Virus record (IMG/VR): IMGVR_UViG_3300024262_000017
Coordinates: 58,546 to 122,545 of that record
Reading direction: 5' to 3' (one strand)
DNA: 64,000 nucleotides
Source of the DNA: a virus
Below the pieces are notes generated by a model, which saw only the letters and a list, made by a program, of their open reading frames with translations, ran no database searches and was not told where the DNA came from. This document shows positions 20,686 through 62,230 of the stretch, piece after piece; position 1 is the stretch's first letter, and every line of letters begins with the position of its first letter. The translations under genes and the position numbers were made by a program.

Positions 20686-23034
20686 CTACCCCTCCAGGTT
20701 TGTGAATGTAATGAGGTCAGCAACGGTGAGGTAGCGCACGGTGTTGTCACTTACACCCTGGCTCAGGGGTTCATCTAAACGATACCGGTCTGCTAATGGG
20801 TTATTTGGATTAGGTATTGCATCCGTGTTGGGGTCGATGATGTAGCTTGCATCCATGGAAACTTCACCACTCGTTTTGAAGTAAATGATTCTACCATCTG
20901 GAGCCAGCAGCTGGTAATAAATTTCCGTGGGTTCGACGTAGCCAATTTCTGAGTATGTTTCTCTGATGAACGTAAGGATATCAGAGATGTCGATGTTTTC
21001 CTTGGTACTAAAGGTGTTTACGTGTTCGGTGAGCGCAGTCTTCGCAGCAGCCTCATCCAAAGCTGTCGTTGCAGATTGCTTTAGTCGATACCTTATTTCT
21101 AGGGTAAGGTATACAGGATTAAGGCCTCTGGGAATAACACTGCCACACAAAATGCGTCGGTCAGTTCCTACCATGAATGCCCAGATGGAATCATACCCAG
21201 AGAGGGCATCATAGGTGACCGTCAGCACACTGTCATTGAAGTACTTTTTATTCTCTGGGTCACCAATGGTGTTCTCCCACCCAACATCTAACTCAGTCAC
21301 TTGCCAACCTGACTGTGCTGCTTCTGGGTTGTGACTTACAAGACGGAATTCCAAGTAAGCAGCTGTAATTTGTTCCACTGGTTCTACGTTGATTCGATTT
21401 GGAAAACGTACACGACCATCAGTATCGACAATTCCTCCTGGGTAGGCGCCCCCAGGCATAGATACATCCGTGACTCGATAAATAGGACGAGCTGGCAACA
21501 AGATACGCCCATCATTCTGAATCGTTTTCGTGAACTGCCCACTATATCGTACGTCTCCTGTGAAAGACCCGTTGGGACCTGCGCTAATCTTGTTGTTGTA
21601 GTCAGGAGAATTATCACCAATGGTGTAAGCAACGGGTCGTGTAATCAGCTGCCACTCTAGCGCAGTCTCCGTAACAAAGTCATAGGAGAAGCCGTCAACG
21701 ACGACTTCGTTGTTACCTGTATCCACTGACAATATTTTTCCCGTACCCAAGTTTTCTCGTGGGTTAGCAGAAGACACGACTCGAATGTATTTTCCAATGT
21801 CTCCACCGTCTTCAACAGCAGCATCAACAAATGTGTAATCTGGTGTTGGTGTACCAGCACTCTTAACTTTGTTGAATGCACCGTCACGTCTGATGTCACC
21901 ATCCGTATAAGTTCCAGCCACGAGTGGCATGGCTCTCGGAAAAGGTGAACGGCGGGAAACAAACAACCCGTAAGGGGATACCTCTTTGATGATGAACATG
22001 TCTGGTTCATATGATTCGATGGCATTATCAAATTTCAGAATGTCACCAGGCTGAATGTTGTAAGTTTCAAAATTCGTTTCGGGGATGATACCCGATGCTG
22101 CATTCACGATAGAAGGATCTCGGAAAGCATAGTACCCTTCTCGGGGGTCAGTGAATGCTCCTCCGACAATCCCACTGAACGTTCGGGCTTCTAAGATGGG
22201 TGTTCTCAAGTAGGCATCTACATAACCACCTGCATGGATGCGTGTGTTAGTTGCTCCTTCAAGAACTAAGTCCCGAATCATTTCAGGTTCGCCATAACCA
22301 ATGACTATGACATCGTCTATTTCACTGAAATTGTCTTTCAAAGTTGCATCAATGGAGCGTGCGCTGTTGAGGTCCCGGACTGTAATGGCTGTTTCTGATC
22401 GGCTCAGCATTTCAGATGTAGTTTCTACGCCACCTCCCCCCGAAAAGGTTGCATCATTTTCTACCCGTGTAACGTAAGGACTGAAGCGGGTGTAGTCTAC
22501 AAACGAACCCTCATCAATGTTGTATGCAACCCCGGTACGGATAGCCACAACAGGCACTTCAATTGTGTACGCCACAATAGCCCCAGAAGAGTCAATGATG
22601 GGGAGCATATCTTCTTCAGCGTAAAACAGACTGTCTATTGCATCTACTACAAAAACTAAGCCAGTCGTTTTGTAGAACTTTGTGGTGATGGGAACGGTTA
22701 CATCTGTAGCCTGGCTAAAATAGATGACCACGTTTCCCCGGGCATACCGACCCTGCTTCCTGAAAATAAACCAGTTGGAAAGTATCTCATCAACTGCATC
22801 ATCGACGTCAGTTCCTGCTAGTTTACCCAGTAAAAGGAGAGACTGTCGTGCTCGGATGGTATCCTTTTCCGACCGAAGGTAAGCAAAGATATTTCCAAGA
22901 GCAACCACAGCAAAATCTCGTAGAGCTCCGCCCTTACTGAAGTCAACACCGGGCATACGATCTGTAAGAAACTGCTCCAAAATATTTTCAGCATCAATAC
23001 GATCTTGCTCAGTGATGGTAATGGTTTCAGCCAT
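20686..23034 (-). CDS. Baseplate J-like wedge protein
   Basis: The 782-residue protein matches the baseplate-J (Mu gp47, T4 gp6) pattern: N-terminal FLTDRMPGVDFSKGGALRDF (split across 22-41), the ETTSEMLSRSETAITVRDLNS segment near 210, and C-terminal VNTFSTKENIDISDILTFIR followed by IGYVEPTEI. It forms the wedge ring that changes shape at contraction. A large Gly/Asp-rich beta domain is inserted in the middle (about 290-600), longer than in the small P2/Mu forms. It follows the gp25-like gene, as is usual. Confidence 0.85.
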   Translation of the reverse strand: MAETITITEQDRIDAENILEQFLTDRMPGVDFSKGGALRDFAVVALGNIFAYLRSEKDTIRARQSLLLLGKLAGTDVDDAVDEILSNWFIFRKQGRYARGNVVIYFSQATDVTVPITTKFYKTTGLVFVVDAIDSLFYAEEDMLPIIDSSGAIVAYTIEVPVVAIRTGVAYNIDEGSFVDYTRFSPYVTRVENDATFSGGGGVETTSEMLSRSETAITVRDLNSARSIDATLKDNFSEIDDVIVIGYGEPEMIRDLVLEGATNTRIHAGGYVDAYLRTPILEARTFSGIVGGAFTDPREGYYAFRDPSIVNAASGIIPETNFETYNIQPGDILKFDNAIESYEPDMFIIKEVSPYGLFVSRRSPFPRAMPLVAGTYTDGDIRRDGAFNKVKSAGTPTPDYTFVDAAVEDGGDIGKYIRVVSSANPRENLGTGKILSVDTGNNEVVVDGFSYDFVTETALEWQLITRPVAYTIGDNSPDYNNKISAGPNGSFTGDVRYSGQFTKTIQNDGRILLPARPIYRVTDVSMPGGAYPGGIVDTDGRVRFPNRINVEPVEQITAAYLEFRLVSHNPEAAQSGWQVTELDVGWENTIGDPENKKYFNDSVLTVTYDALSGYDSIWAFMVGTDRRILCGSVIPRGLNPVYLTLEIRYRLKQSATTALDEAAAKTALTEHVNTFSTKENIDISDILTFIRETYSEIGYVEPTEIYYQLLAPDGRIIYFKTSGEVSMDASYIIDPNTDAIPNPNNPLADRYRLDEPLSQGVSDNTVRYLTVADLITFTNLEG

Positions 23035-28276: not shown

Positions 28277-30085
28277 TTAGTCGTCCTGTTTTACTGCAGC
28301 CAACACCACAGCCGCGGCAATTGCATTGACTGCATATACGACGGAAGAACTCTTGGTATATTGCTCTAGCAGTACGCGAGCTTCATGAGAAATAGCAGGC
28401 ACCTCCACCAGTGCGGCACCAACAAGTCCCCAGTATGGCATCAAAGCTTGTTGAATCTGTAAAATGGGTTGCCGTTCACACAACAAGATTCCATCTACAA
28501 GAGTGAAATCTACATACCGAGAAAGAACCACACGTAACCCAGTAATAGACGCAACATGAAGTAAAGTGCGAGCTTGTATGTTCGGGTCTATCGAAGTAGT
28601 ACAAGACCGCATCAGCACCCCACGTAATTTTTCTAAATTCTCATAGGGAAGTGCGCGAGTCAGTTTGGTATCAATGATATTTGGCGCTGGTACAATATCC
28701 TCAAAACAAGACAAGTTCGTAGTTCGGAAAGATTGCTGCACCATGTTAGAGGAAGCTTCGAGGTCCATGGCAAACGCTTGAACCGTGTACCAAGTATTTG
28801 GTTCCCAACGTCCTTTTCTTGGTAAGAGTTCATAGAAGATACCTTCAACTCCTAGTGCATCACCACTTTCTGTGCCAATACACTGAGGCTTGATGTCTCC
28901 GCTTTTTACACAGTAAAAGGACTGCGCTACTCCGTTGGTATCTACATAGGATGCCTGTATCCAAATAGATGACTTAAGAATGCCAGAGAAATCTTCTTCT
29001 ACATCTTGAAAGAGAACGCGCAAGGGAGTTCGCACTGCGAGGCCATACTCCGCATCAGGTGGTTCCATTTCAATCAGAGGGGGTGAAACACCAAGCCCAT
29101 AGAAAGTTGCTACGTTGTTTGGTGGAGATACCGTGTTTTCATTTAGGTCGTTAATACCTGTTGGGGGTGGTGTTAGTGAAGGCTCATACACAGTGATAGT
29201 GTAGAGTACTCCCGCGGTTTGAGCACTCGTTGTGAGTAAAAAAGTATCTCCAGTTTCCTGAGTCACGCTAAGTACAGACAATGCGCCACTACTGATGTCG
29301 TAGTTAGCTGGGTCAGCACCTTCAGACCCTATGACATCTTTCGAAAACTGAATACGTACATGTTCTGAATTCACAGGAATAGCAGCTGATAGAAGCTTTG
29401 GATTATCTCCAACACCAATGAACGACGCAACATTACCTGGTGATGCTATGACATTGTAGGAAACGTCTTGCACATTGCTGACTGTTACAGAGTACGTCGC
29501 TCCTGTCTTCATGGTGTTTTCAACCAGGAGCGTTACCTGCGTACTGCTGTTCCTGGTAATACTCAAAATTACTATCGAAGCATACCCTCCAATTACGTAA
29601 TTCGACGGGGTCAACAAAGCAGAATTGTTACGCATGTCTTCATTGAAATTCACAATTATCTGAGAAGCAGAAGACGCTGAAGCTGAACTGACTTCAGGCG
29701 CTGTACCTTGGCCTGTGAAATTAGCGCTTTTTCGCACAGGGTCTAACGCCACACCAAAGACACTTCGTACCCCAGACACCGTTACAGAGTAAGCGGCTCC
29801 GTTTGTCATTTCCCCGTTCAGCGTGATTTCAACAATAGTCGGAGACCCGCTAGTCAACACGACAGAAACAGCATTCCGTGCAACACCGAGACTGCTGGTA
29901 ATTATGTAGTTGGCTGGGTTGAGGGCGTCATCACTGTTTCCTGGATTCGTCGCACGCATTGCTTGGTCGAAGTACACACGTATCTTATCGTCTGCTATCG
30001 ACAACGCCAGCGTGACCACGGGGTCTGTTGCAGGGACCTCTGCGCCTTCCAGATGTAATAAGTTGACAACGCCCTTTAGGGTCAT
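28277..30085 (-). CDS. Tail protein with tandem bacterial Ig-like domains
   Basis: The 602-residue protein has three or four SbsA/Big-type Ig-like repeats between about 22 and 330, each with an IxVxFDxxM/NFNEDM/IQFSKDV motif, an NPANY/TPSNYVI turn and a YSVTVSGV/YTITVYE strand. A further fibronectin-like region follows (about 340-450), and the C-terminal 120 residues are helical. Such domains decorate tails and may bind carbohydrate. It starts by ATGA overlap with the small gene 30082-30255. Confidence 0.75.
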   Translation of the reverse strand: MTLKGVVNLLHLEGAEVPATDPVVTLALSIADDKIRVYFDQAMRATNPGNSDDALNPANYIITSSLGVARNAVSVVLTSGSPTIVEITLNGEMTNGAAYSVTVSGVRSVFGVALDPVRKSANFTGQGTAPEVSSASASSASQIIVNFNEDMRNNSALLTPSNYVIGGYASIVILSITRNSSTQVTLLVENTMKTGATYSVTVSNVQDVSYNVIASPGNVASFIGVGDNPKLLSAAIPVNSEHVRIQFSKDVIGSEGADPANYDISSGALSVLSVTQETGDTFLLTTSAQTAGVLYTITVYEPSLTPPPTGINDLNENTVSPPNNVATFYGLGVSPPLIEMEPPDAEYGLAVRTPLRVLFQDVEEDFSGILKSSIWIQASYVDTNGVAQSFYCVKSGDIKPQCIGTESGDALGVEGIFYELLPRKGRWEPNTWYTVQAFAMDLEASSNMVQQSFRTTNLSCFEDIVPAPNIIDTKLTRALPYENLEKLRGVLMRSCTTSIDPNIQARTLLHVASITGLRVVLSRYVDFTLVDGILLCERQPILQIQQALMPYWGLVGAALVEVPAISHEARVLLEQYTKSSSVVYAVNAIAAAVVLAAVKQDD

Positions 30086-39425: not shown

Positions 39426-40028
39426 ATGGGTAAGCTGGATGAGCTTCACCAGCAGATTGCGCTGTGTGAACGCTGTAACTTATGCCGACAAGGTCGGTTG
39501 CAATCAATCCCTGGTGAAGGTGATGAATCCTCTGTGGTTGCTTTTTTTGGAGAAAGCCCTGGTACATACGAGGATGAACAGGGACGCCCATTCGTTAGTC
39601 AACCAGGTCAATTCTTACGGTCTAATTTACGGGCAAACAACATATCCTGCAGCGACATTTACCTTTCCAATGTCGTGCGCTGCAGAACACCTGAAGACCG
39701 AGAAACACTACCAGAGGAAGCAGAAGCTTGCTGGCCCTGGACTTTGGAAACCCTCAAAATCATTCAACCGCGCATCATCGTCACCTTGGGAAAACCAGCA
39801 CTCATGGTGATGGCACACAAGCTGGGCTTCTCAAAGAAAGTAGGTCAGCTAACAATCAAAAAGTTAGCAGGCAAGCCCATTTTCGTGGAAGAACGAAATT
39901 TGTATTGCTTCCCGATGATGGACCCAGCGTATGCACAACGCCGCCAAGATTCACGTGAAGACTTCACGGCACACATGCGTTATCTCAAGCTTGCTATTCC
40001 TGGCTGGTTAGAAAGACCATCAACATGA
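39426..40028 (+). CDS. Family 4 uracil-DNA glycosylase with altered motif B
   Basis: The 200-residue protein has the four Fe-S cysteines at family 4 spacing (C14, C17, C86, C102), motif A GESPG (43-47) with TYEDEQGRPFV following, and NVVRCRTPE (82-90). It would remove uracil from DNA. In motif B the usual HPSx/HPAx His is replaced: the sequence reads FPMMDPAYAQRR (about 162-173). This may change catalysis or specificity. It overlaps the next gene as ATGA. Confidence 0.85.
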   Translation: MGKLDELHQQIALCERCNLCRQGRLQSIPGEGDESSVVAFFGESPGTYEDEQGRPFVSQPGQFLRSNLRANNISCSDIYLSNVVRCRTPEDRETLPEEAEACWPWTLETLKIIQPRIIVTLGKPALMVMAHKLGFSKKVGQLTIKKLAGKPIFVEERNLYCFPMMDPAYAQRRQDSREDFTAHMRYLKLAIPGWLERPST

Positions 40029-40555
40029 AAATCGTATATCGTTGTTCTTGTGGTAAGTGTGTCCGACCACGAATGACACCGCCACCGAAAAAACATGAAG
40101 TACTCTATTACGAGTTCGTCAATCATGCTTTAGGTGGCATCCCAGATTTACCTGTGTTCGGCAAAAGATACAGACGCTTGGTTCGTGTCACTGCAAAAAA
40201 GCACAACTGGTTCATACCTTTTGCTCGGGGAACTAAGAATGACCTCGTCCCTGCACCTGGGGTGTTTCCCTGTAAGTTGTGCACAAAGGCAGAATACAAT
40301 CGTTTATGCCCAAAGCAAGAAGATTGTCTCCCCTATGCTTACTGGGCAACTACACACGCTGGTGCATTGTCGTTTGGGGGAAAGAAAGCCATCGAAGACC
40401 AATTTCATATCAAGCTCTCGAAGGAGAAAACATGTGGTGTCCAACCTGCAACGTCTTTGCCCCGTACGTCTCGGAAGGCAGGAGCTGCATCGAATGTGGG
40501 GGGCCGCTCCAGTTGTCTGCGGAAGACCTCCTCGGTGACGGGACGAAAAAAATAG
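40025..40555 (+). CDS. Cys-rich protein overlapping the helicase start
   Basis: The 176-residue product has CSCGKC near the N-terminus and CKLC...CPKQEDC in the middle, so zinc binding is likely. Its last 41 codons overlap the helicase gene in another frame and have Ser/Arg/Thr-rich, low-quality composition. The frame may be a genuine 124-nt overlap, or an ancestral stop may have been lost. Residues 1-135 look real. Confidence 0.6.
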   Translation: MKIVYRCSCGKCVRPRMTPPPKKHEVLYYEFVNHALGGIPDLPVFGKRYRRLVRVTAKKHNWFIPFARGTKNDLVPAPGVFPCKLCTKAEYNRLCPKQEDCLPYAYWATTHAGALSFGGKKAIEDQFHIKLSKEKTCGVQPATSLPRTSRKAGAASNVGGRSSCLRKTSSVTGRKK

Positions 40556-42666
40556 TAGACGAGGTTCGTTCTGAACAAGTACACATGGCGCAGAAGGTTG
40601 AAGATGCTATTCGTTCAAACACGAATCTCATAGCTGAAGCAGGGACAGGGATTGGAAAAAGCTTTGCAGTTCTTATCCCAGCTATTCTGTCGGGTAGACG
40701 CACAATTGTATCCACTGCAACAACATTGCTTCAGCATCAGTATGACAAGTTCGCATTGGACTTTTTGGCAACCAAGCTTGAGGGCACCGTTGACTTTACA
40801 TATGCTGTTGCTAAAGGCAAAGGGCACTACTTGTGTCCTAAGCTACTCCTCAAGTCCCACAAAAAACTGAAACCCCGTGGCGGATTCAAAACTGCTAAAC
40901 AGCGTGAAGTCCATGATGCTTTCATGGAGTGGGCACGAGAAACTCCGACAGGCGACAAAGAAGACCTTGACGAAGCCCTCAAACCATTAGGGGCTATCAC
41001 TCCTGAGTATTTTAGTGATGTCTCTGCCGAAGAGTGCACTGGTGCAAAGGGCTGTGCCATGAAGGACAAATGTGGCTATGTCAAATCTCGTGTGGCTATT
41101 CAGAACGCGAAAATCATCATCGCCAATCATATGCTGGTAGGGCTCAATGCCAAACTTGGAGGTAAGGTACTTCCAAAGCACGAAATTTACATCATGGATG
41201 AAGCACACAAAGCTGAAGAGTATTTTCGTAAAGCCTTCGGAAGTACTCTGCGAGAAACAACACTGAGCCGTCTTATTGATAAGGTTGACGCAGCCTTTGC
41301 AGCTGACCCTGTTGGCACGGATTACCTTCATGATCTGACAGAGTTAGATAGGTCACTCTTCTTTTGTGCTGCTCAAGCACACACTGGTGACTCAGGTCAA
41401 ACAGTCACGGCAACAGAACTGTTTGAAGCTGACCTAAAAGGAATCGCTATTGTACTAGGTAAGGTACAAGAACGAATCAATTGGTTACTAGATGGGATGG
41501 GTGGTGGTAATGACCAAGAGGATGAAGACTTCATCAATGACTTAGGTGTTGATGCCGAAACTCGGATTCATTACACAAACGCACGTGGTATAACGGCTGC
41601 CTCTGATGAAGAATCATTTGGTGAAGTCGATGAAGCATCTCTACTCAACGGACCTGAGTTGCGAAATGTACTTGCCAAAGTAGGTCGAGCAGCGGAAAAC
41701 ATCGCTACGTTACTAGACACCGACGCCGGCAGTGTTTTGTACGTTGAGAAGTTCTACACCAAGAAGGGAGAACCCCGACACACTTTGGTGCGAGCTCCGG
41801 TGATGCTTGGAAACCTCTTACGCCGAAATCTCTATCCACTCAGCCAAGTGATTATCCAAACGTCGGCTACATTATCTATCGGCGGGGACTTCAATTTCTA
41901 CAAAGAAGAAATGGGTCTCGACGATAACACCACCACCTTCGTTGCTCCGTCTCCGTTTGATTACCGTGGGCGTACGATGCTGTACTTACCACGCCATTTA
42001 CCTATGCACCCAAACAACCAGTGGCCAAGGCACCCTGACCCCGTGGTAGCCATGGAGGAATACAGCGAAGCAATCGCTGTTGAAATCACCAGGCTTATCA
42101 GGATTTCAAAGGGATGTGCCTTCGTCCTATTCTCTGCACGCTCTGAGATGGAAGAGATGTATAGGCGCGTCAAAGAACGCGTGAAGTTTCCATGTCGAAT
42201 CCAAGAGCCTGGGGTATCAACTGGTAGCTTAGAGACTTGGTTCAAGGAAGAAAAGCAACCCGTCTTGTTTGCAACGAAGTCTTTTTGGGAAGGTATCAGT
42301 GTTGAGGGGAAACAACTCCGCATGGTCATCATCCCCAAAGTCCCATTCCCCTCACCAGCAGACCCAATCATGGAAGAGAAGAAGAACATTGTCAGCGAGC
42401 GCCATGGTAGCAAAGCTTGGTTCATGCGCTTGTATTTCCCTGTCATGGTCATGGACGTGCTTCAAGGACTTGGTCGTCTTATGCGTCGCCAGGATGACTT
42501 CGGCGTCGCTGCCATCTTGGACACACGTGTTATCCCTGGTGCAGCTGGTTCAAAGCGTTATGGCAAACAACTCATTTCCAGCTTACCCTTTACCAACGCC
42601 ACCCATGATATCGAGCGAATCCGTATGACAATGGAAAACATGGAACGTGGTATGGGTCCGTTTTAG
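40432..42666 (+). CDS. DinG/XPD-like superfamily 2 helicase
   Basis: ATG 40432 follows AAGGAG, so an upstream extension is rejected. The 744-residue protein has an N-terminal zinc ribbon (CPTC at 3-6, CIEC at 19-22), Walker A AEAGTGIGKS (68-77), an Fe-S-type cysteine set (LCPK, EECTGAKGCAMKDKCGY), DEAH (256-259), VIIQTSATLSIGG and a C-terminal motif VI-like DVLQGLGRLMRR. Enzymes of this group unwind DNA or R-loops in repair and replication. The zinc ribbon fused in front is unusual. It follows the glycosylase, consistent with a repair or replication module. Confidence 0.9.
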   Translation: MWCPTCNVFAPYVSEGRSCIECGGPLQLSAEDLLGDGTKKIVDEVRSEQVHMAQKVEDAIRSNTNLIAEAGTGIGKSFAVLIPAILSGRRTIVSTATTLLQHQYDKFALDFLATKLEGTVDFTYAVAKGKGHYLCPKLLLKSHKKLKPRGGFKTAKQREVHDAFMEWARETPTGDKEDLDEALKPLGAITPEYFSDVSAEECTGAKGCAMKDKCGYVKSRVAIQNAKIIIANHMLVGLNAKLGGKVLPKHEIYIMDEAHKAEEYFRKAFGSTLRETTLSRLIDKVDAAFAADPVGTDYLHDLTELDRSLFFCAAQAHTGDSGQTVTATELFEADLKGIAIVLGKVQERINWLLDGMGGGNDQEDEDFINDLGVDAETRIHYTNARGITAASDEESFGEVDEASLLNGPELRNVLAKVGRAAENIATLLDTDAGSVLYVEKFYTKKGEPRHTLVRAPVMLGNLLRRNLYPLSQVIIQTSATLSIGGDFNFYKEEMGLDDNTTTFVAPSPFDYRGRTMLYLPRHLPMHPNNQWPRHPDPVVAMEEYSEAIAVEITRLIRISKGCAFVLFSARSEMEEMYRRVKERVKFPCRIQEPGVSTGSLETWFKEEKQPVLFATKSFWEGISVEGKQLRMVIIPKVPFPSPADPIMEEKKNIVSERHGSKAWFMRLYFPVMVMDVLQGLGRLMRRQDDFGVAAILDTRVIPGAAGSKRYGKQLISSLPFTNATHDIERIRMTMENMERGMGPF

Positions 42667-44483: not shown

Positions 44484-44577
44484 CAAGAAACAACTCAGAG
44501 AATGGATGATATTCCTCATGCTTCGATACGGGGGAGACAAATGTTTGAAAGACCTCCCCAGGCTAGAGTGTCGGTAA
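44458..44577 (+). CDS. 39-residue small protein
   Basis: ATG 44458 follows AAGGAG with 5-nt spacing. The product (MRKVYFAGNKKQLREWMIFL then 19 more residues) is amphipathic and basic, with two Cys near the C-terminus. It is nested between two overlapping genes; its strong ribosome site is the main support. Confidence 0.5.
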   Translation: MRKVYFAGNKKQLREWMIFLMLRYGGDKCLKDLPRLECR

Positions 44578-44855
44578 CAGTAGGTTTCCCTTCTCGCTCG
44601 TGTATGGAACCCACAACTTGCCCCCACATCATGTTGTGCTGGGCAGGAATGGTTCCAGTTCTCGGAAAATGTATCAGGTGTAAAAAGACAGGTATAGGTT
44701 TTCTCACAAAACGTATTTGTTACAAAAGTCAGAAGCGGGCCTACAGGGTCAAGCCCTTCTTCGAAGGCACACCTCCAAAGTGTGTCATACAAGAGGAGCT
44801 CCGACGGGTAGTGTGTGAAGAATGCTTCAAGCATATAATTCGGTCGGTACGATGA
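44541..44855 (+). CDS. Cys-rich zinc-binding-like protein
   Basis: ATG 44541 is preceded by GGGGGAG. The 104-residue product has CIRCKKTG and a distal CEECFKH, plus further Cys, and resembles a zinc-ribbon or treble-clef fold. It is the last gene before the large non-coding region. Confidence 0.6.
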   Translation: MFERPPQARVSVTVGFPSRSCMEPTTCPHIMLCWAGMVPVLGKCIRCKKTGIGFLTKRICYKSQKRAYRVKPFFEGTPPKCVIQEELRRVVCEECFKHIIRSVR

Positions 44856-45181
44856 CATTGGGTGGCTGCCCTGTAATCATCGCACTGCATGGTTATTGCT
44901 TGAGGTGCTTCGCCGGATTCCATTAGGAAACCGTCCCGTTTTGTTAGTTGCGCATTTTTGCTTGTAGCGCTGTATGCGGTCACCGCATACGTTTTCGGCT
45001 ACGGTTTCGCTCGCCGCTTGGCTTCTCGACCAAAAATTCTTGACAGGCGGCGGCTCGCAAAACCGTTTTTCGTAAAAAAAATATTTGTCGACGAACTATT
45101 TCCCCGGCGCCAAAAAATAAGGTACATGGAAAAACGTGCGTCGTCATACGAAATACGTAACACTGACTTTTGACTGAGTAA

Positions 45182-45353
45182 CACTGATTAGGCCTCTCGT
45201 GAAGGGAGGGCATGAAGATACTTCATGCAGTTATTCTCCACCTTCGGCGGACCAGGGTATCCTACCTATGTAGGACGCACTCGTTGGATGAAGAGGAACA
45301 ACGCATCCCCGAGAGCCGCCGGAGATACCCGTGTAGGAAATACGTAATCAGTG
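45182..45353 (+). ncRNA. Structured RNA subdomain A
   Basis: CACTGATTA (45182-45190) pairs with TAATCAGTG (45345-45353) to close the domain. Inside are CCTCTC/GGGAGG with a GUGA-type loop (45193-45209), GCATGAAG-ATA-CTTCATGC (45210-45228), TCCTAC-CTAT-GTAGGA, GGATG/CATCC, and GGGTATC/GATACCC, which conflicts with simple nesting of CGGCGG/CCGCCG and may form a pseudoknot. Confidence 0.65.
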
Positions 45354-45478
45354 GTTTCACTTTGGTTAGTTCTCTCCTCGCGAAACGTTGTACACCCAGA
45401 AGACACTTTCCACCGTGTTGAAGCGTCTTTTTTCAATCCAAGGGATGTAAAACGACAGCTACGTAACTAAAGGTACAA

Positions 45479-45607
45479 GATTGACTAGGTCTCTCATGGA
45501 GAGGTTGCGCGGTAACCGCGCACATTGGCCTCTAGGCCTTCGGCATAGAGGCATATTAAATTGTGAATTCCAGCCCAGTCTTCTGAACGAGAAATTCGTA
45601 GTCAATC
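45479..45607 (+). ncRNA. Structured RNA subdomain B
   Basis: GATTGACTA (45479-45487) pairs with TAGTCAATC (45599-45607). As in subdomain A the closing stem is followed by GG(C/T)CTCTC and a short hairpin (CTCTC-ATG-GAGAG), then GCGCGGT/ACCGCGC and GCCTCTA/TAGAGGC capped by GCC-TTC-GGC. The closing stems of A and B differ in sequence yet both pair perfectly. Confidence 0.65.
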
Positions 45608-45612
45608 ATTTC

Positions 45613-45702
45613 GGCCCGCAGAACAAATCGAATGGTGTTGGTCCTCCTCCGGGCACTAATCGGTCACACGGGGGCGTGTGAGTTCAGCGGGCCACTTTTT
45701 CG
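45613..45702 (+). other. Long hairpin followed by a T tract
   Basis: GGCCCGC-a-GAAC (45613-45624) pairs with GTTC-a-GCGGGCC (45682-45693) and encloses TCACACG/CGTGTGA. ACTTTTTC follows, so it may end a transcript. TAGGAGG and a four-codon ATG ORF (ATGCTTGCACTCTAG) come directly after, at about 45703-45727. Confidence 0.6.
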
Positions 45703-45964
45703 TAGGAGGTTTATGCTTGCACTCTAGCACGTAGCGCCCAAACACCGTGCGCCACTCAGCTTCGTGCCAAATCTACGCAACATTGTTTATTTTTGTTGGT
45801 CTTCGTTCTTGTTACAAGAACCCCAGGAATTCCCCGTACGCGCCTGGCTCCTTACGATCTTGTGGTACTCCAAGATCGCCGTCCTGCGTCAGCTACGTGT
45901 CTATTGACAGTCTTTGCAACTGAAAACAGTTGCGCCAATTCGTTTTACACAGTAAAAGGACCCA

Positions 45965-46501
45965 ATGCGAAAACCAAGAAGAAAACGTTCTTCGTGGAAA
46001 GATGCTTCCAAAGAGAAGGCGGGTGTTGAGCTCATCAATGGCCGTGCCATGATGGTTGTCAGCCTATTGTACACAGGGCTCGCTTCTTCGAAGGAAGAGT
46101 CTGGGATGAACCATCTCCAGAAATATTTACGCGACTACAAAGACCACCAGCAAGCAGTGCATACCAGCATCGCCAGTGCTTATGAGGTTCTCGCTGAGGG
46201 GAAAGAATCTCGTGGGGGGCTGGATTTAGAAGTAGCGAAACAATTGAAGAAACTTGTCTCCGACGAAATGGAATACATCTGGGACAAGAAGGCTCGGCCG
46301 GCTGCACCCAAGCTGGCGATAGCCAAAGAAGTAGACTTCGATGATGAATACTCTGATGAACCAGAAGAAAAGGAAGAACCGGAGGTCGAAAACACTGAGG
46401 GCTATGAGCCCCCACCAAAGGAAGAGTCCACCCAAGATGCAGAAGACGACAATGACGACTGGTCAGATAGGTTTTCTGAGGGTGAATTCGACTTGGAGTA
46501 A
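45965..46501 (+). CDS. Acidic-tailed protein
   Basis: The 178-residue protein has a basic N-terminus (MRKPRRKRSSWKDASKEK), a helical core (about 30-100) and a very acidic, Glu/Asp/Pro-rich C-terminal third. The pattern fits a nucleic-acid-associated or scaffold-like protein, but no family is recognised. No classical SD is seen; AAAAGGA at 45955 is the best candidate. It is directly downstream of the structured RNA. Confidence 0.62.
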   Translation: MRKPRRKRSSWKDASKEKAGVELINGRAMMVVSLLYTGLASSKEESGMNHLQKYLRDYKDHQQAVHTSIASAYEVLAEGKESRGGLDLEVAKQLKKLVSDEMEYIWDKKARPAAPKLAIAKEVDFDDEYSDEPEEKEEPEVENTEGYEPPPKEESTQDAEDDNDDWSDRFSEGEFDLE

Positions 46502-46833: not shown

Positions 46834-46839
46834 ATGGAC

Positions 46840-47058
46840 TTGACGTGGCACTGGCGTGATTCCGTTAGTGTTCGGTCCACAGGGTCGACACATTATAACG
46901 GAGCGTCCATAGTGGCGGCACCCAGTAATCTTGTGTGGAAGATGAGTTGAGGACCCACATAGCCTCAATGGTCACGTCACATTTTAGACTTACCGCTTGC
47001 GTAATTTAGCGAGCGTTACGTTAGCCGCCGAGAATCCCCCCCTCTCGGCGGTTTTTTT
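46840..47058 (+). ncRNA. Small structured RNA gene with its own promoter and terminator
   Basis: Between promoter and terminator lie about 215 nt with no ORF. TGACGTG (46841-46847) pairs with CACGTCA (46973-46979) to close a domain holding TCCGTTA/TAACGGA (46861-46867, 46896-46902) and TTGAGG/CCTCAA (46947-46952, 46963-46968), a three-way-junction layout. CGTAA/TTACG follows, then the terminator. No known family is recognised. Confidence 0.65.
47025..47058 (+). terminator. Intrinsic terminator of the small RNA
   Basis: CCGCCGAGA (47025-47033) pairs with TCTCGGCGG (47043-47051), followed by seven T residues. Confidence 0.93.
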
Positions 47059-50381: not shown

Positions 50382-50420
50382 TCAGAAAACGAGGGGTGTT
50401 TTGGGGTAAAAGGTATTGAG

Positions 50421-50506
50421 CCCAGTGAGCTTCATCTACCTCCTCCGGGGATGGAGCTTACTGGGAATTACTCCGTGCATGGTTCGCGCCGTGCACGGAG
50501 TTTTTA
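50421..50506 (+). ncRNA. Small RNA candidate with an anti-Shine-Dalgarno loop
   Basis: A 16-bp stem (50421-50436 with 50450-50465, two G-U pairs) presents a 13-nt loop containing ACCUCCUCC, complementary to ribosome-binding sites. It is followed at once by a terminator hairpin: ACTCCGTGCA (50470-50479) with TGCACGGAGT (50492-50501) and a T tract. No ORF is present. The layout suits a trans-acting RNA that blocks translation. Confidence 0.6.
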
Positions 50507-50538
50507 CTTACCCAATACCGGAGGCCGGAGGCAACACC

Positions 50539-50982
50539 ATGGCATCAAAAAGAGAAATGACGACTCCCCAGATCACCACAGTACAAGAAGCAGACCGTAA
50601 AGAAGGTCTGCTGCAAAAGCTCGGAAGAGGAAGCCGGAAGGTAGGGGCGGCGTTTGTAGTTGCCGCCTTCTCGGTAGTGTTGGGGGCCGTCATCGGGGCC
50701 GTGGCGCTGGTCAGCGCTATGACCCCTCTGACACCTGCCCAAGCCGCGGCGAAGGCCGCAGCTACGTACCAAGAAAGGTTCGCCGAAGCTGCAGAGCTTC
50801 TTGAAATTTATCCGGAGGAGTTGCAAGTCCGGCTTGGCAAGCCGGACAAAATCGAGGGCGAGCTGGAGAAGCTCGCTGAAGTACAGGAGAAGGTGGTAGA
50901 GAATAGTAAGGCCCTGGCAATGGGCCTAAATATTCTCCCTCCCCCCAAGGAAAGTCGTTGGTACAATCCCTGGAGTTGGTAA
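50539..50982 (+). CDS. Single-pass membrane protein with coiled-coil tail
   Basis: ATG 50539 is preceded by GGAGG. The 147-residue protein has one transmembrane segment (about 36-59, Ala/Val-rich) and an acidic helical C-terminal domain ending in a Trp-rich SRWYNPWSW. Function unknown; a terminator follows. Confidence 0.68.
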   Translation: MASKREMTTPQITTVQEADRKEGLLQKLGRGSRKVGAAFVVAAFSVVLGAVIGAVALVSAMTPLTPAQAAAKAAATYQERFAEAAELLEIYPEELQVRLGKPDKIEGELEKLAEVQEKVVENSKALAMGLNILPPPKESRWYNPWSW

Positions 50983-50993
50983 GGCGTTTCGTC

Positions 50994-51030
50994 GAGAACC
51001 CTACGAAAGTAGGGTTCTCGTTTCTTTTTT
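50994..51030 (+). terminator. Intrinsic terminator
   Basis: GAGAACCCTAC-GAAA-GTAGGGTTCTC (50994-51019) followed by a T-rich tract. Confidence 0.93.
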
Positions 51031-51056
51031 ACCTAAGACTAAGACTCGGAGGAAGC

Positions 51057-61078: not shown

Positions 61079-61140
61079 CTCCGACCGACCCCGTTGCGTG
61101 GTTGCGTGGCAACAGCGAAACCTGGTTGAACTTGCGGTAA

Positions 61141-61181
61141 GGCATGAGAATGAGGTAACTCCTTGTTCTCATGCCTTTTTT
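61141..61181 (+). terminator. Intrinsic terminator
   Basis: GGCATGAGAA (61141-61150) pairs with TTCTCATGCC (61166-61175), followed by TTTTTT. Confidence 0.9.
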
Positions 61182-61338
61182 GTATCTACTCCCCAAAATG
61201 GGTGTGACAAAGTGGCGCGATTTGGTCAAAACGCCATGGATTTTTCAAAAACGCATTATCAGGTAGTTAGGAGCAACTGACACTAAAAGTGCCCGGTCGC
61301 TAATATAAAATAACCCACCGAATCTGAAGCACAATCGA

Positions 61339-61563
61339 CCTCACCCCGAGAAGTATCGTGTGAAGCGCCAAATACCCCCATATATTTGAATTGTGACCCC
61401 TGTAAAGGTATGGTCACATATTGTAATGTAGTGTAGGGTGAGGTATGGGGAGAGGTGTGCATGACGTATAAGGAAAGGTAGGATATTATCTCACAAAAAA
61501 GAAAAAACGTGCTCACATACATGTATATATTTGGCGCTTCCCAGGATAATTCTCGGGGTGAGG
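61339..61563. repeat. 36-bp inverted repeat flanking a 153-bp spacer
   Basis: The left arm (61339-61374) and right arm (61528-61563) are inverted copies with 33 of 36 positions matching; each contains CCTCACCCCGAG/CTCGGGGTGAGG and GAAGCGCCAAATA/TATTTGGCGCTTC. The spacer is AT-rich at its ends and holds another GGGTGAGGTA near 61435 and a GTGACC/GGTCAC pair. An AT repeat (TATATATATATA) follows the right arm. No gene is present. It suits a replication origin or a regulatory/packaging locus. Confidence 0.8.
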
Positions 61564-61731
61564 TAAAATATATATATATATAGGGGACTTAGGTTTTTAG
61601 CGAACAGGGCACTTTTCATTTTTCCTGCTGTAAGTACCTGAAACTGCGTTTTTGTCAAATTTTTGAGGGGGGGTGTTTTCGTCACTCAAAGTGTTGCAAT
61701 CGGTATACACTCGTACCTTTTCCTACACTAC

Positions 61732-61816
61732 TTTGTGACACGCTTCTACTTATTCGTGACACGATAGTGCCATACATTTGGGTTTGTGTTACCTTCTTCC
61801 TGTTTCGTGACACGAT
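61732..61816. repeat. Three GTGACAC-type repeats (iteron- or operator-like)
   Basis: TTCGTGACACGAT occurs at 61753-61765 and 61804-61816, and TTTGTGACACGCT at 61732-61744. The full copies contain the dyad TCGTG-A-CACGA, as expected for a dimeric DNA-binding protein. They lie in gene-free DNA near the inverted repeat. The rest of 61564-61843 shows only AT-rich tracts and one G run. Confidence 0.65.
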
Positions 61817-61843
61817 TTAGGGGTAAGGGTAGCCGGGAGGGTC

Positions 61844-62038
61844 ATGAACTTTGAAGCGAAGCCACTATTCCCCGGGCGGGAAGGGCAGGCTCTGCTCCCA
61901 GGAAGCTTGGAGGGCTGGGTTCAACCAAAGGGGCTTGCCAGCCGGTCAGCTCAGCAGAGGGCTCCTACGCAGCTCAGAGAGCGAGTAACACGATTGTATG
62001 GTCACCTATGGCCACGCAGGCAATGTTGGCGACCCTGA
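61844..62038 (+). CDS. Doubtful 64-residue ORF
   Basis: ATG 61844 follows GGGAGG with good spacing, but the product (Pro/Arg/Gln-rich) looks unlike a folded protein and the DNA has a GGCTGG/CCAGCC hairpin. It may instead be part of a non-coding region. Confidence 0.25.
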   Translation: MNFEAKPLFPGREGQALLPGSLEGWVQPKGLASRSAQQRAPTQLRERVTRLYGHLWPRRQCWRP

Positions 62039-62088
62039 AGAGGAGCAAAGTTCTCCGGGTCGAAGGATTGACGCAGTGCGTAACGTAC

Positions 62089-62160
62089 CTTTGCTTACAG
62101 TGTGCTACAGTGTGCTACACTGTTTACACCGTGAGCGTCGCCAGCGTTGCCGGCGTGGTC
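62089..62160 (+). promoter_or_regulatory. TGTGCTACAG tandem repeats and a diverged dispersed motif
   Basis: TGTGCTACAG, TGTGCTACAC and TGTTTACAC follow one another (about 62100-62129), with a dispersed-motif copy at 62140-62159. They lie upstream of the 62231 membrane protein gene and could bind a regulator. Confidence 0.4.
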
Positions 62161-62230
62161 AGCCAGGGTAGGTCATGGTTGACCCAGTGGAAATAATACA
62201 GTACCAACATAAACCAGGAGGAGGTGAACG

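Follow-up and report, generated by a model that had tools for sequence, protein, structure and literature searches.

To our knowledge, large structured RNAs of phages are few and their function is mostly unknown. In one described family, GOLLD, a position near tRNA genes is common, not universal, and in another setting, the glycine riboswitch, homologous domains occur in tandem. Many GOLLD RNAs are longer than 800 nt and lie near tRNA islands, and they are conserved in their 3' region and variable in the 5' region; ROOL RNAs are often situated near tRNA islands, and both RNAs form RNA-only cages (PMC12286853). In ICP1, the most abundant transcript is a noncoding RNA of ~800 nt, which derives from a ~1-kb gap without ORFs between gp139 and gp140 (PMC7567579).

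Here we describe a gene-free stretch of DNA from an uncultured phage that carries a tandem pair of domains: D1, at about 45143-45360, and D2, at about 45447-45614. Coordinates are those of the window, that is, the whole stretch of 64,000 nucleotides that was analysed, which corresponds to bases 58546-122545 of a linear virus record of 122,545 bases. With an ORF-less gap of about 1 kb, a genome of about 125-126 kb and no tRNAs, the Vibrio phage ICP1 resembles this phage and offers, by analogy, the best precedent for such a gap giving rise to an abundant phage RNA. Unlike the D1/D2 locus, which is read from its sequence, the ICP1 RNA has been shown to be transcribed, is very abundant and measures about 800 nt. 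Its gap (L045, 18098-19108) has no Rfam match at gathering score, folds with z = -2.7 on the minus strand, has no match to the D1/D2 model and contains no known tandem modules. ROOL RNA (RF03087) is likewise phage-borne, of similar length (its model has 574 positions) and rich in helices, and has pseudoknots, as may D1; however, its model finds no match here, the record lacks tRNAs where ROOL often stands beside tRNA islands, and the tandem duplicated module is specific to the present locus. GOLLD RNA (RF02032) is also phage-borne, large and multi-domain, but its model has no match either, and our locus very probably comprises two copies of one fold. Tandem riboswitches of the glycine type also place two homologous domains one after the other ahead of a gene, whereas this locus has neither a riboswitch family match nor a ligand-related gene downstream.

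A gene-free stretch in a replication-type gene cluster

The window belongs to a tailed phage, with genes for the terminase large subunit (545-2137) and a baseplate wedge protein (20686-23034); among the matches listed from named phages, the best ones to the terminase share only 24-31% identity with it. ARAGORN found no tRNA or tmRNA in the whole record. The gene cluster in which the locus sits is of replication type and includes a helicase gene (40279-42666); a uracil-DNA glycosylase gene is found at 39426-40028. Genes flanking it on both sides are on the + strand. The ORF upstream (44502-44855) has a low hexamer score (-0.21) and, started at 44541, would on direct reading encode a zinc-ribbon-like protein preceded by a good ribosome-binding site. 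Downstream lies an orphan gene (45965-46501, + strand) of 178 aa, which has no Pfam or PHROG match and a hexamer score of 0.42. Between the gene end at 44855 and this orphan there are only short ORFs, those inside 44958-45923 measuring at most 77 aa and scoring -0.38 to +0.13 in an in-frame hexamer coding test trained on 40 large genes of the same phage (training mean 0.48). By this test the gap is noncoding, and 44858-45964 (+ strand) contains no credible gene, which bears out the gene-free region of ~1.1 kb in the first-pass annotation. A 19-nt word, TTTTACACAGTAAAAGGAC, is identical at 45943-45961, just ahead of the start of the gene at 45965, and at about 28904-28922, within a gene on the opposite strand; at E 0.15 this is perhaps chance.

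The abundance of stems claimed for 44970-45940 stands up to comparison with dinucleotide shuffles. Perfect hairpins (at least 7 bp, loop of at most 8) number seven, against 0.33 +/- 0.62 and a maximum of two in the shuffles, and Watson-Crick helices of 7 bp or more total 16, against 7.3 +/- 2.6. Folding energy also beats shuffled sequence: the core (45150-45720) folds on the + strand at -200.7 kcal/mol, compared with -170.4 +/- 5.7 in shuffles (z = -5.3), and at z = -3.4 on the minus strand, while the whole of 44970-45940 reaches z = -5.4 on the + strand. Yet folding energy alone is not decisive for the locus, since other stretches of the genome have comparable z-scores in 160-nt windows (1417 of 1530 windows scanned). 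Values equal to or below those of the locus occur at 336-495, at 50416-51055 and, upstream of the window, at about bases 40961-41760 of the record; these stretches lie in or around genes and some have long terminator hairpins. The extent originally proposed holds for a structured core at about 45150-45705 and not for the outer parts, which are unremarkable except for single hairpins; folding is at chance level in the flanks (44860-44999, z -0.2; 45706-45850, z +0.7), although single hairpins are present there.

The tandem domains D1 and D2

Each domain is preceded by a 5' flank and closed by a long-range stem, all on the + strand. The D1 flank (45143-45181) contains TACGTAAC at 45154-45161 and GTAACACTGA twice (45157 and 45178), and its upstream part is common to the D2 flank. 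D1 itself (45182-45353; fold z -3.95; model R2) consists of a 9-bp closing stem P1 (45182-45190/45345-45353) around hairpin P2 (45193-45198/45204-45209), the 8-bp hairpin P3 (45210-45217/45221-45228) and a third element comprising a 9-bp stem (45242-45250/45316-45324) and a hairpin (45260-45275). Complementarity between GGGUAUC (45255-45261) and GAUACCC (45324-45330) provides a candidate pseudoknot helix, which is possible in D1 only; it would cross the 9-bp stem of the third element, with one base common to both. The D2 flank (45447-45478) resembles that of D1 and has TACGTAAC at 45460-45467. D2 (45479-45607; fold z -4.72), which is found by the D1 model, likewise has a 9-bp P1 (45479-45487/45599-45607), P2 (45491-45495/45499-45503), a 7-bp P3 (45506-45512/45516-45522) and, as third element, a hairpin (45528-45534/45546-45552).

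The two tandem closed domains of the first-pass annotation are therefore present, each with its own P1; that they are very probably two diverged copies of one fold had escaped it. Its account of the loops was right in part. CCUUCGGC recurs in both domains, but not as a cleanly stem-closed UUCG tetraloop, and the GUGA loop is that of P2 in D1 and is not kept in D2.

Element by element, D1 and D2 have in common the order TACGTAAC, GAYTAGGYCTCTCRTGRAG (covering the 5' strand of P1 and P2), the triloop hairpin P3, CCUUCGGC and a terminal AATNCGTARTCARTNNTTTC, which carries the 3' strand of P1. The module can be described as a 9-bp closing stem that encloses first a hairpin of 5-6 bp, next one of 7-8 bp and last a third element, which is variable, and we regard D1 and D2 as very probably diverged tandem paralogous copies of it. 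Local sequence similarity between them is marginal (36 of 500 shuffles were as good); global similarity is better (3 of 1000), for domain limits chosen after the folds had been seen. A profile of D1 that uses sequence only recovers D2 at E = 4.9, whereas a covariance model made solely from D1 with its own fold scores it at 32.6 bits (E = 6.7e-6, a rough value as are all those from the D1 and D2 models, for the 122.5 kb genome on both strands), over its full length and on the strand of D1, and pairing is therefore the source of most of the added signal. The best match of this model outside both domains reaches 7.4 bits. In the reverse direction the D2 model recovers D1 weakly, ranking it first among the other places in 6 kb (15.9 bits, E = 0.038), and misses it genome-wide under default filters. 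No third copy of the module was found in the genome.

The closing stem and the two hairpins are kept between D1 and D2. Among 23 comparable pairs, in an alignment fitted to the structure, eight show double changes, two are changed on one side, 12 are unchanged and one is broken; with the partners slid by 1-3 columns as a control, 0-1 double changes remain. P1 is in register even in a structure-blind MAFFT alignment, with three double changes, six pairs unchanged and none broken. Pairing is thus kept despite sequence change, between two sequences only, since no orthologue was found to add to them. The P1-P2-P3 order with its linkers never arose when either domain was shuffled (1500 shuffles), but it is also present at about 16 further places in the genome, so that topology alone is not diagnostic. 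Taken together, the excess of hairpins, the fold z-score and the compensatory changes between D1 and D2 make a structured noncoding RNA at this locus well supported.

Strand, transcript ends and the downstream gene

Hairpins that fold on both strands, and the replication-type cluster with its helicase, would also suit an element that acts as DNA, such as a replication origin, packaging or partition site, in which the hairpins would be cruciforms or protein sites. Several observations make this improbable. The segments that P1 brings together lie 112-154 nt apart and show compensatory changes, and P2 has one U-G pair per domain, at differing positions, which would be A-C on the opposite strand. 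There are no iterons, the minimum of cumulative GC skew is near 37.5-40.5 kb, and a better origin candidate is available at 61.2-61.8 kb. The U-G pairs, together with the better fold of the + core against shuffles, favour an RNA of the + strand.

The second gene-free stretch, of about 1.15 kb (61079-62230), is a possible replication origin. It has nested inverted repeats, one with 52-nt arms (61338-61389/61513-61564) that are 83% complementary and a further one with 30-nt arms (61240-61269/61631-61660), and it also contains a TA-rich run (ATATATATATATA), while GTGACACG words recur near 61732-61816.

Four terminator-like hairpins punctuate the D1/D2 locus on the + strand. Two precede D1: a perfect 8-bp hairpin, GTATGCGG-TCA-CCGCATAC, followed by GTTTTC (44972-44990), which may be the terminator of the upstream operon, and an imperfect inverted repeat with 17-nt arms followed by T5 (45001-45071; z -2.6). 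After D1 there is an imperfect hairpin with T6 at 45428-45433 (45398-45433; -7.8 kcal/mol, z -1.9), a weak terminator-like element, and after D2 a branched stem (45613-45700; z -3.3), in which GGCCCGC (45613-45619) pairs with GCGGGCC (45687-45693) around two inner hairpins before ACTTTTT, and which may form the terminator-like end of D2. A consensus scan reported none of these four and found no promoter near D1. Within 45641-45716, a CCUCCUCC loop of the branched stem is complementary to AGGAGG at ~45704-45710, which could be chance; on direct reading this AGGAGG precedes the ATG of a 4-codon ORF.

The hairpins with U-runs after D1 and D2, with the two terminator-like hairpins before D1, suggest one or two transcription units. 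To judge from the layout of these elements, one RNA of ~560 nt and two of ~250 nt, each followed by a hairpin and U-run, fit about equally. Hence the 'large ornate RNA' of the first-pass annotation holds as regards a structured noncoding RNA and less so as regards a single large molecule. Two separate small RNAs of ~250 nt, each a module with its own terminator, would account for the conserved 5' flank and the downstream U-run hairpin that each module possesses; the absence of visible separate promoters and the weakness of the hairpin after D1 (-7.8 kcal/mol) make this somewhat unlikely, in an estimate that overlaps with that for a trans-acting RNA in general, of which it is a sub-case.

The same U-run hairpins could instead serve as attenuators, one behind each module, that control readthrough into the downstream gene. 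This is the main rival explanation, a tandem cis-acting leader of the gene or operon at 45965 with two homologous aptamer- or protein-binding modules, and it is consistent with the position of D1 and D2 directly upstream of 45965-46501 on the same strand and with the tandem homologous modules known from some riboswitches, such as that for glycine. We consider it unlikely, given that about 260 nt and three further perfect hairpins in the leader of the next gene (45805-45821, 45855-45878 and 45916-45933, + strand) separate D2 from the start codon, that no Rfam leader or riboswitch family matches the record or the region, and that the downstream gene is an orphan without a metabolic role to sense.

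Known families, relatives and a possible role

Membership of GOLLD or ROOL, which the first-pass annotation had considered, found no support. The whole record has no Rfam match at gathering score (cmscan), and at E up to 5 the region gives a chance-level match to snR10 only. Direct searches of the record with GOLLD and with ROOL at E up to 10 gave no match, in the case of ROOL with no control genome that carries it. If the locus belonged to GOLLD, ROOL, OLE or some other large RNA family already described, and had diverged beyond the reach of the family's model, this would suit the similar size class, the phage location and the multi-stem architecture; with these negative searches, the absence of tRNAs and a single module that is tandemly duplicated, we think this extremely improbable.

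Relatives were sought by several routes. A search of phages with blastn returned no match, and neither the downstream orphan nor the helicase, each used as a single-protein query against viral contigs, found any. Scans with the terminase large subunit (TerL) found eight related loci, of which those at 57-71% identity are fragments ending before the locus, while two at 43% have, on direct reading, genes for an XRE-type regulator and RNase HII at the matching place; TerL had no match in genome contigs. Alignment-based helicase and methyltransferase scans reached distant phages only, in which the RNA is absent. The D1/D2 model matched nothing in 1.45 Mb of the relatives' loci nor in 14 whole records, and blastn of the loci fetched from relatives gave nothing. 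No orthologue was found in these collections, which may omit records very near to the window's own. A DNA pattern of the words common to D1 and D2 had no match in its stricter version; a looser version matched once among viral contigs (L041) and once among genomes (L116), both inside protein genes and so attributed to chance.

Elsewhere in the window (46834-47050), TGACGTG/CACGTCA closes an intergenic multibranch structure, behind which stands a strong terminator, GCCGCCGAGA-ATCCCCCCC-TCTCGGCGG-T7. The structure folds at z -3.2 with the terminator and -1.5 without it, lacks an Rfam match at gathering score and is not similar to D1 or D2.

The reading that we favour, to which we would give an even chance, is a structured RNA of the phage that acts in trans through a duplicated binding module, as one molecule or two. 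Transcription of the + strand would yield either one RNA of ~560 nt or two of ~250 nt, which would end at the U-runs near 45433 and 45700, and the product would be stable during infection. The repeated module may bind a protein or host machinery and so act as a two-site scaffold or decoy, with the variable third element a separate contact for each copy. Duplication of the module and variation of its third element agree with such two-site binding. Whether this amounts to the 'new class' once suggested cannot be established from one genome, and we propose only tentatively that a class of large phage RNA, two-site and unrelated to GOLLD, ROOL or OLE, arose by tandem duplication of a P1-P2-P3 module.

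From the comparison of D1 with D2, selection seems to act on helices P1-P3, and the third element to vary. With P1-P3 picked out in this way, constructs of about 150 nt would allow the repeated module to be tested directly in vitro. Where only one genome is known to carry an RNA, an internal duplication can thus serve as a source of covariation evidence.
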